Positions 6,915-28,938 of a DNA stretch of 64,000 nt are shown one piece after another. The notes beneath the pieces were generated by a model, which saw nothing but the letters and a program-made list of their open reading frames with translations, searched no databases and was not told where the DNA came from. Source of the stretch: Neorhizobium galegae bv. orientalis str. HAMBI 540 (lineage in GTDB: Bacteria > Pseudomonadota > Alphaproteobacteria > Rhizobiales > Rhizobiaceae). The stretch covers positions 1,550,001 to 1,614,000 of the forward strand of contig NZ_HG938354.1 in assembly GCF_000731315.1 (NCBI RefSeq), read 5' to 3'. Both the position numbers and the translations under genes were made by a program. Each line of letters opens with the position of its first letter. Positions within the stretch are counted from its first letter, which is position 1.

Positions 6915-7205
6915 TTATCTATAGAGCGATGAACAGGTCGCTCGCACGCCTGCGCGCGGAGAATCCGTGTTGCCGTCAGCGCGATAGGACTGATAGCGGT
7001 TTGTACACCACTGTGCATGGCTGCCCCCACCCGCGCGAGGCCGGCTCGCGATGGCACCGCCGATGATAGCGACAGCACCGAATGCTGCTAAGGGTACCAG
7101 AAACCATCGCTGCGGTGGTGGTAGCCCGTACGTCTGTCTCTGTATCCACGTTGGCCATTGGCAATATTCGCGACGATCATTGTATCCACGGCGGTCATCC
7201 CGCTA
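6915..7205 (-). pseudogene. BA14K-family protein remnant, frameshifted
   Basis: No single frame is open, but joining two minus-strand frames gives a BA14K-like protein. One frame gives [20 protein letters not shown] then Tyr-Pro and a stop; a single extra base there would lead into [19 protein letters not shown] in the other frame. That frame continues with [18 protein letters not shown] and ends with a conserved-looking Cys-containing tail ([10 protein letters not shown], stop at 6915). The hydrophobic AIIGGAI segment and HxxWCxxRYxSYR motif are BA14K hallmarks. The signal-peptide end is missing, as the upstream bases now lie next to cspA. A sequencing indel could explain one shift but not the missing N-terminus. 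Confidence 0.6.
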
Positions 7206-7247
7206 TAGAGTGCACCCACAACTCTGCGAACACGGGAATAGGTATTT

Positions 7248-7451
7248 ATGGCGACTGGTACAGTGAAGTTTTTCAACGACGACAAGGGTTTTGGTTTCAT
7301 CACCCCCGAGAATGGCGGACAAGACGTTTTCGTCCATGTCTCCGCACTCGAGCGCGGCGGATCGCTCCGTGAAGGCGACAAGGTGAGCTTCGAACTGGGG
7401 CAAGATCGCAAAACCGGGAAATCAAAAGCAGAGAACGTCTCGGTTCTTTGA
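7248..7451 (+). CDS. cspA: Cold-shock domain protein
   Basis: 67 residues, a single cold-shock domain. RNP1 (KGFGFITP, residues 13-20) and RNP2 (VFVHVSAL, about 27-34) are intact. The protein binds single-stranded RNA/DNA as a chaperone for transcripts. Rhizobia carry several paralogues, so the symbol marks the family and not a specific copy. It is monocistronic on the plus strand; a cold-responsive 5' leader may exist but cannot be judged by eye. Confidence 0.92.
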
Positions 7452-7934
7452 CTAAGAAATCGGCTTCGCGAAATACAGGGCTCTGCCAGGAAGCGCTGTT
7501 CAGCTTGAGCTGGCAGTTTCGTCAACGAGCCAAGCTGATCCATGTGGTACATCGACGAGATCAGCGCGCCGGAATAGCAAGCCTGCTGAGATTGGATGTA
7601 GGGTGGACAAGCGAGCCGTTAGATTGACAGCGAGGTCCCGACGGGTAGGTCCCGGACAGGGCTACGCTGCCCCGCGAGATGTGATAAGGTTTCGGGAGCG
7701 ACTGACTGGCTGCGGGGAGCGGAGCTCGCGGACGGTATAGCGGCCGGACGCGACGCCGATCGCAATCCGCCGTCCGCACTTCGCAACCAGGTCGATGAGA
7801 TCGAAGCCATTCAACGTCCCTCCTGATAAACATGAGCGGGTGCAAGTTGACTTGGTGATTCCGGGACAAAGAATGTTGTTGTGTGCCGGCGAGCGCGAGC
7901 TGCGGCTGTAGAGATACTAAGAGGGAAGCTGATA
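7452..7934. other. Intergenic region, no gene supported
   Basis: About 480 bases after cspA. Minus-strand frames at 7561-7869 and 7619-7810 have compositions typical of overlapping noise (Arg/Ser/Pro-rich) and no ribosome-binding sites. No terminator with a T-run was found after cspA. Confidence 0.4.
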
Positions 7935-8111
7935 ATGGGATGGAAAACGCCGAAGGTCGAGTACGTCAACGGTTATAGGATTGTTGAGCTCGAGGGACCG
8001 ACCTTCAAAGTTTATGACGGCGACCGCCAGCTCGGTGAGGATTTCCCCTACTCCGGCGAAGCGGCCGCTCACGCGAAGTCTCTTCCAACGCTGGATCCTC
8101 CGCGGCGATGA
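7935..8111 (+). CDS. Small hypothetical protein, 58 residues
   Basis: ATG at 7935 follows GAGGGAAGCTGATA, a usable ribosome-binding site. The product starts MGWKTPKVEYVNGYRIVELE and ends in a Pro/Arg tail. It looks like a small beta-rich cytoplasmic protein with no signal peptide and no cysteines. The family is unrecognised. An in-frame upstream start at 7881 is possible but has no ribosome-binding site. Confidence 0.5.
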   Translation: MGWKTPKVEYVNGYRIVELEGPTFKVYDGDRQLGEDFPYSGEAAAHAKSLPTLDPPRR

Positions 8112-8277
8112 GTAGGACTTCCGAACGGTTTTCGGGCATTTCCTCTTCGGCGGTCTCGTGGAAATCGGACTCAAGGACACTTAGCTGAATATCACCTTTA
8201 TTGGGACCATGGATTGATCACTTTCAATCCGTACATGACCCAGATGCAACTTTGCTTATTCATTCAATCGACGAGGC

Positions 8278-8571
8278 CTAAACAGGATCGCCGGCCCAGT
8301 CTTCGTGTCCATGGCGTATTCGGATCACGAAAATAGCTCCATTCTCTTCGATCCGGTACACAACGAGATGCGCTTTGAACGGATGGATCCTAACGGGCGG
8401 CGAAATCTCTTCTCGCTCACGCGCCATTCGCGGATTCGCAGCAATCAGGTCAAGCACCGCAAAAAGCTCGTCATAATACCGCCTAGCCTGTGCGGATCCG
8501 AACATGCGGACACTTTGCTCGGCGATTGCAATGATGTCCTCTTCCGCTTCGACAGAAAAGCTAAAACGCAT
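8278..8571 (-). CDS. parE: ParE-family toxin of a type II toxin-antitoxin pair
   Basis: 97 residues with the RelE/ParE fold pattern: an N-terminal strand and helices (AEEDIIAIAEQSVRMFG), the central region RRYYDELFAVLDLIAANPRM, and the C-terminal strands HLVVYRIEENGAIFVIRIRH. ParE proteins poison DNA gyrase. Its start codon shares one base with the antitoxin stop (TAATG), so translation is coupled and the antitoxin is made first. The order antitoxin then toxin and the sizes are those of ParDE. Confidence 0.85.
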   Translation of the reverse strand: MRFSFSVEAEEDIIAIAEQSVRMFGSAQARRYYDELFAVLDLIAANPRMAREREEISPPVRIHPFKAHLVVYRIEENGAIFVIRIRHGHEDWAGDPV

Positions 8572-8880: not shown

Positions 8881-9143
8881 GATAACTTGGGCACGGGGGC
8901 GTTGTTTGTATGTTTGTGGCCACCGGATCAGCTAGGGGAAGCCCCCTCGCGACGGATGGTTTTTGATTTCCGACGAGGTTTCGATCGGGCCTAATTTGGC
9001 CATCTGATCGAGCCGGCGAAGAGTAACGAAGAAAGGCTTCGAACCGGCATCATCCAAGCCCCTTGTCGCTTGAGCAATAACAATTATTTAACCTGCCGAT
9101 CGGCACCGGGGCTCCAGTTCGGATTCACACGCGGGAAATAGTT

Positions 9144-11111
9144 CTAACGCCTCTTACTCAACAAAAACATCAAGCAAGGAGCACCTATGAGGGCTGACAC
9201 GAGCCCGGCCGGGATCTGGTAGGGCGCTACGATGGTGCGGCCGACGAAATCTGCCGCCACCATTAGTCCGCCGCCGATCAGCGCAGCGCCGATCATCTGT
9301 GGAAGGGCGCGCGTCAAGCCGGCCTCCCGCGCAAGATGTGGCCCCATGAGTCCCACGAAGGATAGCGGCCCGACAGTCAGCGTTGCGGCCGCGGTCATAA
9401 GTCCGGCAAGCCCAAACAGCGCCAGCCTCGATCTGGCCAACGGTATACCGACCGCAGCCGAAGGGGCTGGTCCGAGCGGCAGGATATCGAGCCAACGGCG
9501 CGCTGCCAGAGCAACGGCAAGCAGTGCGGCTGCTATTGCTGCTTCCGCCGTGGCTACCGTGCCGTCGACCAGATAGGTCGAGCCGCTCATCCATCGCATG
9601 AGCAGGACTGCCCTTGGATCTCCCGTCGAACTCAAGACGCCGACAATTGCATCGATCATCGCACTGAGCGCGATGCCGGCCAACAAGACCCGTTCCGGGG
9701 CGAAGGTGGAGCGCCGCGAACTCAGAAGAATGACGGTGAGAACCGAGATGGCACCGCCGACCGCAAAGGCAAGCTGGCCGGAGAACCCCGGTGCGATAGC
9801 AAAAAGCGCGATAGCAACGCCGAAGGTAGCGCCGGCGCTGATCCCGAGAACTTCGGGGCTTGCCATCTCGTTGCCGGTCAATCTCTGGAGGATCGAACCC
9901 GCGACGGCAAGCATCGCGCCGGATGCGAGCGCCGCAAAGACCTTCGGGGCGCGGATCGCAAGGAGCTCATCGAGGAATTCGCCGGAAAGGACAGTCCAGC
10001 CGCCGCCAGGCCCACGTCCGACAAAAAGGCCGACAATCACGAGAACCAGAACACTTATGGCAGCAATGGCAACGGGGACTTTTGTGTTCCATGTGGGCGG
10101 GTGCCGCCGCGCCGCCGGCTGCTGCATCCTGTGCCGGATCTTCAATCGCGGCAGTAGCGCCAGGAGCAGCGGCGAACCGAAGATGGCAGTGACTGCACCA
10201 GTCGGCAGAAAATCGCCAAAGCCGCCCGCCGCGAGTTGGAGCACGGAGTCGGCAAGAAAGAGCAGTCCCGCGCCGATCAACGGAGACCAGAAGATCAACT
10301 GGACCGGCCGACGCGCTCCGGAAAGCCGCGCGAGCGTCGGTGCGACCAGTCCGACGAAGCCGATGACGCCGACGGCACTGGTGACGAAGGCGGCAAGCAT
10401 CACCGCGCAGGCGACGACCACGATGCGAAGGCGAGCGAGCCTCACTCCGAGCGCGGCCGAACTGCTCTCTCCCAGATCGAGCAGCGACAGCGGCCTGATT
10501 ACCAGGGCGCAGACGATGGCGACGGTGCTCACCTTCCAGATGAGCGACTGGGGAATGACCCAACTCTGCTGCGCCAACGAACCCGCGCCCCAAATGAACA
10601 GGCTCGCCAGGTAGCGCTGGTTCAGGTAGGTCAGGATCGCCGATAGGCCCCCGCACCAGAGGCTCAGAACCAAGCCCGAAAGGACAAGCGAATAGGGGGA
10701 GAAGCCGCGCCGCGCGCCAAAGCCGACGACGATCGCAGCGGCGGCACCGCTCCCGAGAAGAGCGACAATGTCGCGGCCGGCCCCAATAAGGCCGGGCATA
10801 AAAAGCGAGACCACAACCAGTGCGAGATTGGCTCCGGCTGACACGCCGAGCGTCGTCGGGTCGGCCAGCGGGTTTCGTAGGACCTGCTGGAACAAGGCAC
10901 CGGACAATGCGAGCGCGGCACCGGCAAGTAACGCCGTGGCTAGCCGTGGCAAGGTCGAATAATAAAGCACCATGCGCTGGATGTCGTAGCCCTGCCCGGC
11001 CGATCCTGAGAGCACCGGTCCTACGAGAAGCCAGAATGCCATGCAACCGGCGCAGAGCAGGACGAGAAACACGAGCGCCGGCCCGAGATTTTCGCGGCGA
11101 ATTGCCTTCAT
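9144..11111 (-). CDS. fhuB: Fused double-length iron-siderophore ABC permease (FhuB type)
   Basis: 655 residues made of two FecCD-type permease halves in one chain, the arrangement of FhuB. The start at 11111 overlaps the end of the binding-protein gene by four bases (ATGA). Each half has about ten hydrophobic helices and the conserved family block: ALSGALFQQVLRNPLADPTT in the first and LQRLTGNEMASPEVLGISAG in the second. It forms the inner-membrane channel for ferric hydroxamate-type siderophores with the FhuC- and FhuD-like products upstream. The length matches FhuB (about 660). Confidence 0.9.
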   Translation of the reverse strand: MKAIRRENLGPALVFLVLLCAGCMAFWLLVGPVLSGSAGQGYDIQRMVLYYSTLPRLATALLAGAALALSGALFQQVLRNPLADPTTLGVSAGANLALVVVSLFMPGLIGAGRDIVALLGSGAAAAIVVGFGARRGFSPYSLVLSGLVLSLWCGGLSAILTYLNQRYLASLFIWGAGSLAQQSWVIPQSLIWKVSTVAIVCALVIRPLSLLDLGESSSAALGVRLARLRIVVVACAVMLAAFVTSAVGVIGFVGLVAPTLARLSGARRPVQLIFWSPLIGAGLLFLADSVLQLAAGGFGDFLPTGAVTAIFGSPLLLALLPRLKIRHRMQQPAARRHPPTWNTKVPVAIAAISVLVLVIVGLFVGRGPGGGWTVLSGEFLDELLAIRAPKVFAALASGAMLAVAGSILQRLTGNEMASPEVLGISAGATFGVAIALFAIAPGFSGQLAFAVGGAISVLTVILLSSRRSTFAPERVLLAGIALSAMIDAIVGVLSSTGDPRAVLLMRWMSGSTYLVDGTVATAEAAIAAALLAVALAARRWLDILPLGPAPSAAVGIPLARSRLALFGLAGLMTAAATLTVGPLSFVGLMGPHLAREAGLTRALPQMIGAALIGGGLMVAADFVGRTIVAPYQIPAGLVSALIGAPCLMFLLSKRR

Positions 11112-25606: not shown

Positions 25607-25891
25607 GACACTCGCTTCTTGCTTCTGGTTGCACATGAGACTTATGGACGAGGCACCCAAATCAGCCAGTTTGGCTGAACAGACGATTTCACATAATGCT
25701 TCGCCTTGATGAGGATCGAACCTTCGATGCGAGTTGCTTTTATCTCGTAGTATCAGCGCCTTAGGCTTTTCAGCATGCCGTAAGGCTCTGTTTTTGAAGC
25801 TCTTTCCGGGCACGACTAGACCACTGCAGAAGTGGAGAAACCTGCATGCTCGAGGCGCGGACTTTGACAACGAGGACTTAGCGTGCTTTTC

Positions 25892-25917
25892 TGTCCTTAG
25901 TCCTAGGACGGAGGACA
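25892..25917. promoter_or_regulatory. Nested palindromes before the HTH-NTase-PP2C operon
   Basis: A perfect 10-bp palindrome, GTCCTAGGAC (25900-25909), sits inside an outer inverted repeat TGTCCT (25892-25897) / AGGACA (25912-25917), ending 13 bases before the first start codon. This is where an autoregulator would bind, and the first gene may encode a winged-helix protein. A TTGACA hexamer at 25864 could be a -35 element; no clear -10 was found. Confidence 0.45.
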
Positions 25918-25930
25918 CCATTCGGAACAC

Positions 25931-26509
25931 ATGATGAAAAGCCAGGACATCGTCATACTGCTCAAGCTCATCAGCCTTCAGGAGCAGGAGCAGGAACAAG
26001 AGCAGGGGGCCGCACGCTTGCGCCTGGAGGCGCAGGGCGATGACCCCTACTCTGTCCGGAATTTGGAGGCATCTCTCGGCATAAGCAAGACCGAGGTCAA
26101 TGAGTCTATCAAGAGAAGCGTATCCTCCGGCATTGCCAGCAAAGATCGCGAACTTGGCCGACCCAAACCGAGCCGCCGGAATCTGTTCAATTTCATCGTC
26201 CACGGCCTGAAATTCACATTTCCGGCAAAGCCCGGATCAATGCAGCGAGGCATTCCAACCGCCTTTGCGGCACCCATGCTCGAGGGCCTTTTGGTCAGCG
26301 CTGGCAACTACATTTACGTGTGGCCGCATGCGAGCGGCCGTGAAATGGGCCAGTCAGTCGATCCGTTGTTCAAAAGCGTGCCGGAAGCAGTCCAAAAAGA
26401 CGAGCGCCTCTACGAATATCTGGCACTCTGCGACGCAATCCGTCTCGGAAACCAGCGCGAAGTGGGTTTGGCAAGTGAGCGCCTCTCAACACGGATACTC
26501 GGCAAATGA
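25931..26509 (+). CDS. Putative winged-helix regulator/antitoxin-like protein
   Basis: 192 residues. The N-terminus (MMKSQDIVILLKLISLQ) leads into a Glu-Gln repeat (QEQEQEQEQ, residues about 17-25), then a probable helix-turn-helix YSVRNLEASLGISKTEVNES and a wing. The middle, IPTAFAAPMLEGLLVSAGNY, and the VWPHASGREMGQSVDPLF block look conserved. I do not recognise a named family, but the layout (DNA-binding protein just before a nucleotidyltransferase) is that of an AbiEi-like antitoxin/regulator. Its stop overlaps the next start (ATGA). ATG 25934 is an equally good start. Confidence 0.7.
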   Translation: MMKSQDIVILLKLISLQEQEQEQEQGAARLRLEAQGDDPYSVRNLEASLGISKTEVNESIKRSVSSGIASKDRELGRPKPSRRNLFNFIVHGLKFTFPAKPGSMQRGIPTAFAAPMLEGLLVSAGNYIYVWPHASGREMGQSVDPLFKSVPEAVQKDERLYEYLALCDAIRLGNQREVGLASERLSTRILGK

Positions 26510-27225
26510 CCACTGTCCGCGGCCAACTGCTCGAAATGTTAAAAGTCGTCGCAACAGCGCTTGAACAAGATTTGCGCGATCGCCTTGTCTTCGTCGGGGG
26601 CTGCACAACGGCGCTCTTCATCACAGACCCGGTGACCCTCGAAGATGTCAGGGCCACCGACGATATCGACCTTATTGTCGATCTTGCGGGGCTTGCTGAG
26701 TGGGGCCAGCTTTTGGAACAGCTGCGAGAAAGGGGGTTCAAAGAGTCCTCGGATGATGACGTCATCTGCCGAATGCGGCTCGGCCCGCTCAAAGTCGATT
26801 TCATGCCGGATGATGAAGCGATCCTCGGCTTTAGCAATCGCTGGTACGCAAAAGGGATCGAAACCGCTGAGGTTCACCAACTCACTGAAGGTCTGACCAT
26901 CCGGCTCCTCACGCCGGCCCTCTTTATAGCGACGAAACTGGAAGCGTTCGCCGGCAGGGGTGGCGATGACCTCTATTCCAGCCGAGATGCCGAAGACATA
27001 CTTCTCGTGGTCGATGGAAGAGAGGAGCTTGGCAAGGAGTTGGCGAATGCAGATCTCGACGTTAGAACATACATCGCTGAACAATTCCAAGGGCTACTCG
27101 AGCATCGCGACTTTGACGACTTCCTCGAGGGAAATTTGCGTGGGCAACCCGGCCGCGCAGCTATCGTGCGCGAGCGCTATGTTGCCATAAGCCTATGCGC
27201 AGACGGTGGCGCGGATGCGCATTAA
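26506..27225 (+). CDS. Nucleotidyltransferase-fold protein (AbiEii/MNT-like)
   Basis: 239 residues. The polymerase-beta-type NTase core is clear: Gly31-Gly32 (VFVGGCTTALF), the metal-binding pair Asp53/Asp55 (TDDIDLIVDL) and the third carboxylate Asp98 (LKVDFMPDD). The C-terminal part continues with LFIATKLEAFAGRG and SRDAEDILLVVDGREEL. Proteins of this kind are seen as toxins or RNA-modifying partners in AbiE-like and MenAT-like systems. It overlaps the preceding gene by four bases and the following gene by eleven, so all three are translated together. The target is unknown. Confidence 0.78.
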   Translation: MTTVRGQLLEMLKVVATALEQDLRDRLVFVGGCTTALFITDPVTLEDVRATDDIDLIVDLAGLAEWGQLLEQLRERGFKESSDDDVICRMRLGPLKVDFMPDDEAILGFSNRWYAKGIETAEVHQLTEGLTIRLLTPALFIATKLEAFAGRGGDDLYSSRDAEDILLVVDGREELGKELANADLDVRTYIAEQFQGLLEHRDFDDFLEGNLRGQPGRAAIVRERYVAISLCADGGADAH

Positions 27226-27955
27226 AGCAACCTGGTATAGTCAGAAAGGCACAAAGACCTCTGACAATCGTGATCATGCAGGGCTTGGCATCAGTACAAG
27301 CGGCGTTATGAGCATCGTCGTCGACGGCTCTACCGCAGGCCCCGACAATGGCGAATATGCGGGCGCGATCGTACGGGAAATGGTCGACTGGTTCAGCTGC
27401 CTGAAGGAAGCGTTGGATCCCGATGCACTCATGAGACAGCTGCGCAGGATCCATACGGATTTGCAGGCCCGTTTCCCTCGGGGTTCGGCCAGTTTTATTA
27501 TCGTGCATATAGCAGCTGAAGGCCGAACGGCCGTTGTCCATGCTGGCGACTGTCTTCTGGGCGAGATCACCCAAGGCGACAGAATTCAGTGGCAAACTCA
27601 CCCTCACACGCTCGCCAATGTTTTCACCGAAGTTGCACTTGATGAATTATCGAAGATACCAGCTCGACATCTCCTCACCAAAAGCTTCCGGTCCCGCGAA
27701 TATATAGCGCCTGAAATCATCGAAACGGACACCGTGCCCGGCGTCTATCTAATTTCCACGGACGGCTATTGGGCCGAACTCTCAGCAAGTGACCAACTTG
27801 CGGTGATCGACGGCCGCGAAGTAACCCTAGATGGAGAGCACGACGACTGGAGCCTGCTAAAGCTCGCCGTTACGGATATTGCCGACCAGCAATTTATCGT
27901 CGATGTTGGCGGCCTCTCCCCGAATTTTTACACGGCCCAAGCATTGCGCCTTTGA
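27215..27955 (+). CDS. PP2C-type Ser/Thr phosphatase-like protein
   Basis: 246 residues from ATG 27215 inside the end of the NTase gene (a GTG at 27206 is also possible). PPM/PP2C motifs appear in order: SDNRDHAG (16-23), VDGST with Asp37, HAGDCLLGEI with Asp112, STDGYWAEL with Asp183, and HDDWS with Asp210/211, the last replacing the usual DN. All metal-binding aspartates are kept, so the enzyme should be active. There is no signal peptide or membrane segment. A phosphatase coupled to an HTH and an NTase gene suggests that phosphorylation controls the module, or that the module senses a kinase. Confidence 0.75.
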   Translation: MRIKATWYSQKGTKTSDNRDHAGLGISTSGVMSIVVDGSTAGPDNGEYAGAIVREMVDWFSCLKEALDPDALMRQLRRIHTDLQARFPRGSASFIIVHIAAEGRTAVVHAGDCLLGEITQGDRIQWQTHPHTLANVFTEVALDELSKIPARHLLTKSFRSREYIAPEIIETDTVPGVYLISTDGYWAELSASDQLAVIDGREVTLDGEHDDWSLLKLAVTDIADQQFIVDVGGLSPNFYTAQALRL

Positions 27956-28046: not shown

Positions 28047-28931
28047 TCATACACGCAGCGCATCGATGACGGCGCGCAGGCCGGCCGACAGGTATTTGCG
28101 CGTCGGGTAATAGAGATAAAGCCAGTCCTCGGGCGCACTCCAGGATGCCAGGCATTCGACCAGGCTGCCGTTCTGGATATAGGGACGCGCCCGTTCCTCC
28201 CAGACGTAAGCCAGCCCCACGCCCGAAAGTGCTGCCTCGACCATCAGTTCATGGTCATCGAGCGACAGAGACCCGGTCGTCTCGAATTCGATGATCTTTC
28301 CGGCGCGACTGAACTCCCAGGCATAGGGCTTGCCGCTTGGATAGATATTGCGGATGCAGACATGTTGACGCAGATCATCCGGGGTTTTGGGGAGCGGATG
28401 ACGCTCGAAATAGTTTGAAGAACCGACGACAGCAAACCGAAGCCGCGGCTTGATCTTCACAGCCGTCATGCCATCGCGCAGGCTTTCACCGAGACGAATA
28501 CCAGCATCGAACCCCTCCTCAACAATGTCGACAAGCCGGTCGGTGGCGACGATTTCCAGCTGGAGACCGGGATTTTTTGCAATCAGCGGGCCAATGACCG
28601 ACCGGAACACAAACGGCGCCACCGAATTGGGCGCGTTGATGCGCACCTTACCGAACGGCGTGTCACGAAACTGGTTGAGAGCATCGAGCGCCGATCCGAT
28701 CTCGCCGAAAGCCGGCGATAGTTGCGACAAGAGCATCGCGCCGGCATCGGTCAGGGCCACGCTGCGGGTCGTCCGGTTGAGCAGGCGAATACCGACGCGC
28801 GCCTCGAGATTGCCAACGGCATGGCTTATCGCCGAGGCCGTCACCCCGCGCTCTTCGCCGGCCCGGCGAAAGTTGCGGTGACGGGCAACCGCATCGAAGG
28901 CGGCCAGTTCCGAGAGATCCGTGCTGCGCAT
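28047..28931 (-). CDS. LysR-family transcriptional regulator
   Basis: 294 residues from ATG 28931. The HTH is RNFRRAGEERGVTASAISHA followed by GNLEARVGIRLLNRTTRSV, typical of the LysR subgroup that controls oxidoreductase genes (DhcR/AaeR-like). The effector domain ends ...LYLYYPTRKYLSAGLRAVI. It is divergent from the VOC/SDR pair with a 117-base spacer and probably regulates it. Confidence 0.9.
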   Translation of the reverse strand: MRSTDLSELAAFDAVARHRNFRRAGEERGVTASAISHAVGNLEARVGIRLLNRTTRSVALTDAGAMLLSQLSPAFGEIGSALDALNQFRDTPFGKVRINAPNSVAPFVFRSVIGPLIAKNPGLQLEIVATDRLVDIVEEGFDAGIRLGESLRDGMTAVKIKPRLRFAVVGSSNYFERHPLPKTPDDLRQHVCIRNIYPSGKPYAWEFSRAGKIIEFETTGSLSLDDHELMVEAALSGVGLAYVWEERARPYIQNGSLVECLASWSAPEDWLYLYYPTRKYLSAGLRAVIDALRV

Positions 28932-28938
28932 TGTCAAA

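Follow-up and report, generated by a model that had tools for sequence, protein, structure and literature searches.

A winged-helix–nucleotidyltransferase gene pair with an optional PP2C phosphatase in Neorhizobium galegae: a candidate toxin–antitoxin module behind a conserved operator-like element

Here we analyze a 64,000-nucleotide stretch of Neorhizobium galegae bv. orientalis str. HAMBI 540 (contig NZ_HG938354.1, positions 1,550,001 to 1,614,000; hereafter the window, whose own coordinates are used throughout), part of a 1.81-Mb contig in a two-contig genome. On its forward strand lies an operon of three overlapping genes: gene A (25931..26509; 192 amino acids (aa), with a second ATG at 25934) encodes a winged helix-turn-helix (wHTH) protein, gene B (26506..27225; 239 aa) a nucleotidyltransferase (NTase) of the DUF1814/AbiEii type, and gene C a PP2C (PPM) phosphatase that runs to 27955 from either a GTG at 27206 (249 aa) or an ATG at 27215 (246 aa). 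Across relatives, A and B form the unit, and the phosphatase is one of several third genes. Our preferred reading, to which we assign a probability of roughly 0.4, is that A and B are an autoregulated NTase toxin–antitoxin (TA) pair of MenAT/AbiE-like character with an added phosphatase: A dimers would bind a four-half-site operator and repress the operon; the vital target modified by free, unphosphorylated B would most likely be the acceptor end of tRNA; A would keep B off, probably by inducing autophosphorylation of B at the active-site residue Thr51, as MenA does with MenT; and C would take the phosphate off Thr51, thereby switching stored toxin on or setting the balance.

A preliminary description of this DNA had proposed an operon of HTH, NTase and PP2C genes, and both of its overlaps are present on one strand, with 4 bases shared by A and B (ATGA at 26506) and 11 by B and C when C is read from ATG 27215, or 20 from GTG 27206; the arrangement also recurs in different contexts. 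The accompanying claim that the module was undescribed was rejected, because PADLOC-DB (2023) already contains models PDC-M21A, PDC-M21B and PDC-M21C, which match A, B and C at 2e-90, 2e-112 and 2e-87, and the PDC-M21 proteins are adjacent in the window with the order and overlaps of the three open reading frames. In the available text of the respective sources, 'PDC' stands for 'Phage Defense Candidate' (PMC12429752) and most PDCs are without experimental validation (PMC12988326). A full-text literature search for 'PDC-M21' returned no paper, mechanism or test, and a search combining AbiEii, PP2C and operon returned none; wider searches (nucleotidyltransferase, TA, PP2C and phosphatase; AbiEii with type I restriction–modification (R-M) and Shedu) found no such operon in titles or the beginnings of abstracts, most subscription papers falling outside their coverage. 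The candidate name may be familiar to specialists. What the present analysis adds to the PADLOC entry, and what would be new as far as these searches show, is a split into an A+B core and accessory genes, the operator, a second phosphatase family, and a connection of MenT phosphorylation to a phosphatase encoded in the same operon.

To define the unit we gathered 146 loci including the window, of which 141 remained after removal of the near-copies L051, L056, L076, L152 and L156; sources were the 80 contigs that best matched B (77 loci), whole-genome draws (51), plasmids chosen across the identity range (12) and the window. Near-copies are excluded from the 141-locus, tree and unique-operator counts and retained in those of identity pairs, operator geometry and mutual information, while the probe loci L001–L007 and L100–L103 (repeats of counted places or a weak match) and L157–L176, fetched for other questions, are uncounted. 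Genomes matching B were counted at a threshold of E up to 0.001, and the totals include the genome of the window or of the search centre as well as some weak or partial matches. The order yields 6 matching genomes out of 397 (four fetched, omitting the own genome and a weak match), the class 3 out of 289 (one fetched, omitting the own genome and a partial match), the phylum 28 out of 299 (20 fetched, omitting the own genome and seven weak or partial matches), and the class around a Pseudomonas centre 41 out of 369 (28 fetched, omitting 12 weak or partial matches and G698, which is L079).

In every one of the 138 loci that extend 700 bases or more upstream, A lies next to B, most commonly with a 4-base overlap (77 of 121 junctions). 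A script recognized 135 of these; in L073, L079 and L099 it had chosen too long a frame for B, and A was confirmed there separately. Of the 141 loci, 44 have an intact C, 16 a broken one and 71 none, and contig ends leave 10 undecidable; a PP2C gene, intact or broken, thus stands behind B in 60 of 131 resolvable loci and is broken in 16 of those 60. Intact A, B and C do co-occur in the 44 loci, as a check proposed in the preliminary description had asked, yet its three-gene unit is too narrow, and PP2C as an obligatory part was rejected on its absence from 71 of 131 resolvable loci. The share of loci with C depends on the sample, reaching 50 of 73 resolvable loci among contigs picked by likeness to B, 2 of 45 among genome draws and 7 of 12 among plasmids, in addition to the window. 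In a tree of 127 B proteins, built by a quick method and with some long branches, 54 of 55 PP2C loci (intact or broken) fall within one set of 83 rows (SH-aLRT 96), with 13 changes of the PP2C label over the whole tree; early gain of PP2C followed by repeated loss would be the simplest story.

These patterns bear on the possibility that C is itself the antitoxin, neutralizing B or reversing its damage. There is precedent in KKP (kinase–kinase–phosphatase) of Pf prophages, a tripartite TA-like anti-phage module in which, according to the available text, the PP2C protein PfpC acts as antitoxin against toxic kinases (PMC11341870), and C is tightly coupled to B. The window's operon differs from KKP in that Pfam finds no kinase domain in A, B or C, the partner of the PP2C is an NTase, and C looks dispensable. 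C is broken next to a B scored intact in 11 loci, with A also intact in nine of these, and 59 of the 71 C-less loci have both A and B intact. Intact C beside broken B occurs in 0 of 5 cases, all five broken-B loci having a broken C (Fisher p 0.0008, an optimistic value, as related loci are counted singly and some frameshifts may be sequencing errors). Among 26 genomes and four plasmid records without a seen C, the best match to one of three PADLOC M21C models is 71 bits, against 291 for the window's C; this match, in the genome of L085, could be a distant relative of C, and weaker PP2C proteins elsewhere in these genomes might substitute. Because C can be broken where B is intact, was never seen intact next to a broken B, and diverges fastest of the three proteins, comparative evidence argues that it is not an obligatory antitoxin, and the idea of a necessary antitoxin was rejected; we regard an antitoxin role of C in general as quite improbable.

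The assignment of C as a phosphatase draws on its family. Alone, C has no Pfam match up to E 1 and only a weak Stp1 match (3e-7, far below that model's cut-off); a profile built from 20 C-family members reaches PP2C structures at 2e-20. Residues D40, D115, D186 and D213 are invariant in the 20 rows of the family alignment (A3) and position 214 nearly so; these correspond to the PP2C aspartates 37, 112, 183 and 210–211 previously listed from ATG 27215, the first four being the invariant ones. By these sequence criteria C is a PP2C/PPM phosphatase. Its mean identity among relatives is 31.6%, against 52.4% for A and 53.8% for B (1081 pairs from 47 loci, three being near-copies), and it lies below that of A, and below that of B, in 99.8% of pairs. 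Such divergence would suit a protein that acts as its own sensor or effector, answering phage or host kinase activity in an arms race, with A and B as regulated partner or guard, and other third genes are indeed defence effectors (SduA, type I R-M). Fast divergence may also reflect relaxed constraint, and C is often broken; we consider this account unlikely.

The preferred reading, a MenAT/AbiE-like pair with an added phosphatase, starts from B. B matches the Pfam AbiEii model at E 9e-6 (26.2 bits, cut-off 22.5) and holds the complete DUF1814/AbiEii motif set (GG...DxD, third Asp, Lys and the Asp of motif IV). Structure prediction, which had been proposed as a check and was run on A and B, returned a winged helix for A and for B a Pol-beta NTase fold matching MenT1. 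Residues GG31–32, R49, T51, D53, D55, D98, K144, R151, D161 and D164 show no variation across the 127 unique intact relatives, which bears out the glycines and Asp53/Asp55/Asp98 originally singled out from one sequence. Thr51 aligns with the MenT1 threonine whose autophosphorylation silences MenT1, and supplies the Ser/Thr phosphosite before DxD expected of MenAT-type enzymes; because DUF2253 and DUF4849 relatives share strict Ser/Thr conservation at that site (PMC11375011), the feature is not MenAT-specific. By analogy, we infer that B is toxic and that Thr51 is phosphorylated.

How a toxin stored in this form could be released is a question raised by the MenAT literature. In the available text of the TglT/TakA paper, reactivation of phosphorylated TglT must need an unidentified phosphatase (PMC7205606); the MenT autophosphorylation paper names none, the word 'phosphatase' being missing from its main text (PMC11375011). 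The window's operon differs from MenAT1 and MenAT3 (TakA–TglT) in including a phosphatase gene and in its A, another wHTH protein without shown MenA3 likeness. With AbiE it shares an HTH gene that overlaps an AbiEii-family NTase gene and a palindromic operator, AbiEi repressing via inverted repeats; it differs in its third gene, in the weakness of AbiEii matches to B (Pfam 9e-6, PADLOC 3e-4), and in A, which has no Pfam match and no AbiEi match among the PADLOC matches listed for it, an absence that excludes nothing.

A second family of phosphatases occupies the slot of C in four loci (L018, L107, L108 and L116), where a calcineurin-like phosphoesterase (Pfam 1.6e-15 to 9.7e-13), unrelated to C's family and with intact metal motifs, begins between 4 bases inside and 18 bases behind B's end (in L116, 12 bases later from its ATG). 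Its nearest NCBIfam models, acc_ester and YfcE, are weak and below cut-off. The three placeable loci fall outside the PP2C set on the B tree, and their grouping is poorly supported. Two phosphatase families in one slot suggest, without amounting to proof, a built-in switch that reactivates a phosphorylation-silenced toxin, and C would then, by analogy, be a candidate dedicated phosphatase acting on B. A broader proposal, possible but doubtful in our view, is that two unrelated phosphatase folds were independently recruited as dedicated reactivators of DUF1814 toxins, with A-induced Thr51 phosphorylation as storage and signal-triggered release without antitoxin degradation, A and B under a single ancient four-half-site operator serving as an exchangeable trigger before phosphatase, Shedu and type I R-M genes.

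Several observations weigh against a phosphatase-operated MenAT-like switch. Thr51 is equally invariant in loci without a phosphatase and therefore does not track C. The A+B pair persists without C, so that reactivation there, if needed, must have another source; a weaker PP2C match is present in 20 of the 30 C-less genomes or plasmids searched. The substrate of the phosphoesterases could also be something other than B, be it another protein, RNA or a nucleotide. Finally, A matches wHTH chains among solved structures mainly over residues 1–86, and its likeness to MenA or AbiEi is not established because its C-terminal part has no covering match there.

Regulation by A is suggested by a 26-bp palindrome, TGTCCTTAGTCCTAGGACGGAGGACA (25892..25917, strandless), which sits 13 bases ahead of the ATG at 25931 with half-sites arranged as GTCC-N3-GTCC-N2-GGAC-N3-GGAC. 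It is unique in the 6.46-Mb genome (one site within three mismatches), and the four-half-site geometry is exact in 89 of 133 loci versus 0 of 240 control windows, suggesting a conserved operator-like element. The preliminary description began its region at 25892, the palindrome's first base, and its text does not mention the palindrome. A would bind this element, and is presumed to be autorepressor and antitoxin in one. A possible promoter at 25864..25892 on the forward strand (TTGACA 25864–25869, 17 bases, TTTTCT 25887–25892) was read by eye and is weak because a sigma-70 consensus scan finds 0 promoters in the operon's 5' region; its TTGACA is also present in the relative locus L020. Among the 192 positions of A, K53, Y40 and R43 have the highest mutual information with the operator half-site; a specificity code in these residues was considered, and the signal is confounded by descent because GTCC and other half-sites switch only twice on the tree. 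Among non-GTCC loci, H57 accompanies ATTC in 21 of 21 cases and other half-sites in 2 of 10, a link that is suggestive only.

Third genes other than phosphatases include components of known defence systems. SduA of Shedu lies directly behind B in L049 (PADLOC 3e-168), and a broken SduA does so in L051, a near-copy of L049, and in L066, whose B is also broken. HsdM follows B in nine loci (L073, L079, L080, L082, L085, L095, L113, L114 and L133; in L073 and L085 it is a fragment or runs off the contig), four of which (L079, L080, L082 and L133) are close kin, and HsdR precedes A in seven of the nine (not L113 or L114). L132 has the order hsdR-A-B-C-hsdM-hsdS (HsdR was checked separately in L079, L095 and L132), and L078 carries NERD, Mrr and reverse transcriptase genes behind the pair. 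For a TA pair inside an R-M operon there is precedent in E. coli, where, in the available text on the RptR island, DarTG2 sits in a type I R-M operon (PMC12255303); its toxin, antitoxin and operator differ from those of A and B. It is such context, namely the PADLOC candidacy and, in some loci, neighbouring genes of R-M, Shedu or other defence types, that points to a possible anti-phage role. The TA/defence-like character proposed at the outset stands as a reading, its toxicity and anti-phage activity as presumptions.

The same insertions, together with patchy occurrence (6 matching genomes out of 397 in the order), could instead reflect a mainly selfish TA pair that would stabilize plasmids, islands and defence operons and have no direct effect against phages. 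Of the 118 plasmid records that contain B, 47 are typed as conjugative, and A-B-C is carried on an 8.2-kb plasmid. This explanation leaves the phosphatase as third gene unaccounted for, and the pair is common in some groups (41 of 369 genomes in the Pseudomonas-centred draw; one family of 1.7–3.0-Mb genomes, f215, supplies 16 of the 28 matching phylum genomes); we judge it distinctly unlikely. Phage records contain 0 with B, and IMG/VR yields four viral contigs by alignment search (0 by single-protein search), all with A+B and none with C. In the f215 loci L135–L143, L145, L148 and L149, C was seen in 0 of 12 (four undecidable at contig ends), and operators are mostly of the ATTC type.

Individual loci offer further observations. 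In L098 (an Alishewanella jeotgali contig, about 7094–8292) C is interrupted, its halves about 1.2 kb apart, with A and B intact. Behind A+B lie a protein of 2035 aa that weakly matches AAA ATPases (L104:106-6210:-) and is of a size reminiscent of large NLR-like defence proteins; a 729-aa protein for which neither Pfam nor PADLOC gives a match at E up to 0.01 (L089:6755-8941:+); and a second, different Pol-beta-type NTase gene (L086:6865-7608:+). An annotated TrlF-family AAA-like ATPase gene directly precedes A-B-C on Vibrio anguillarum plasmid p292 (L012:453-3194:+). Next to A-B-C on a plasmid of Sinorhizobium meliloti, a UvrD-type helicase is encoded on the opposite strand together with an annotated AAA ATPase (L015:3507-6508:-), a pairing reminiscent of Gabija. 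Plasmid pAQ6 of Picosynechococcus PCC 7002 has an intact A and a short B remnant near annotated MNT/HEPN and VapBC-type TA genes (L017:4001-4759:+).

Within the window, the operon lies, by sequence comparison, at the edge of a variable stretch, because similarity to three congeneric genomes begins at 28047–28051, 92–96 bases past the end of C, and stops short of the operon; the 6–7 kb beyond that point in each of the three hold no match to operon or left flank (blastn 1e-5). A LysR-type regulator (28047..28937, reverse strand) forms the right flank. To the left, outside the module, a truncated forward-strand gene (25397 to about 25615) is probably what is left of the substrate-binding protein of an amino-acid ABC transporter, whose N-terminus it weakly resembles (E 7e-5), in agreement with the truncated transporter gene noted earlier. 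The nearest relative, L020, matches the window from 25863 to 27503, where its C is cut off, and the left-flank stretch has three partial Agrobacterium vitis matches in plasmids. The AT-richer DNA reported for the island is real (GC 0.54–0.57 over 25–28 kb) and weak as evidence, because 8–9 kb (0.534) and 54–55 kb (0.535) are as low in GC. Elsewhere, positions 9001–11000 combine strong AT skew (0.23–0.35) with high GC over 2 kb and hold a 737-aa frame on the reverse strand.

Collectively, this is a finding worth testing, not a proven defence system. For PDC-M21 it provides a candidate mechanism, a division into core and optional parts, and an operator with which regulation can be measured. An operon with a phosphatase beside a MenT-like NTase, and two phosphatase families in one slot, makes the question of toxin reactivation, as it appears in the available text of PMC7205606 and PMC11375011, testable.
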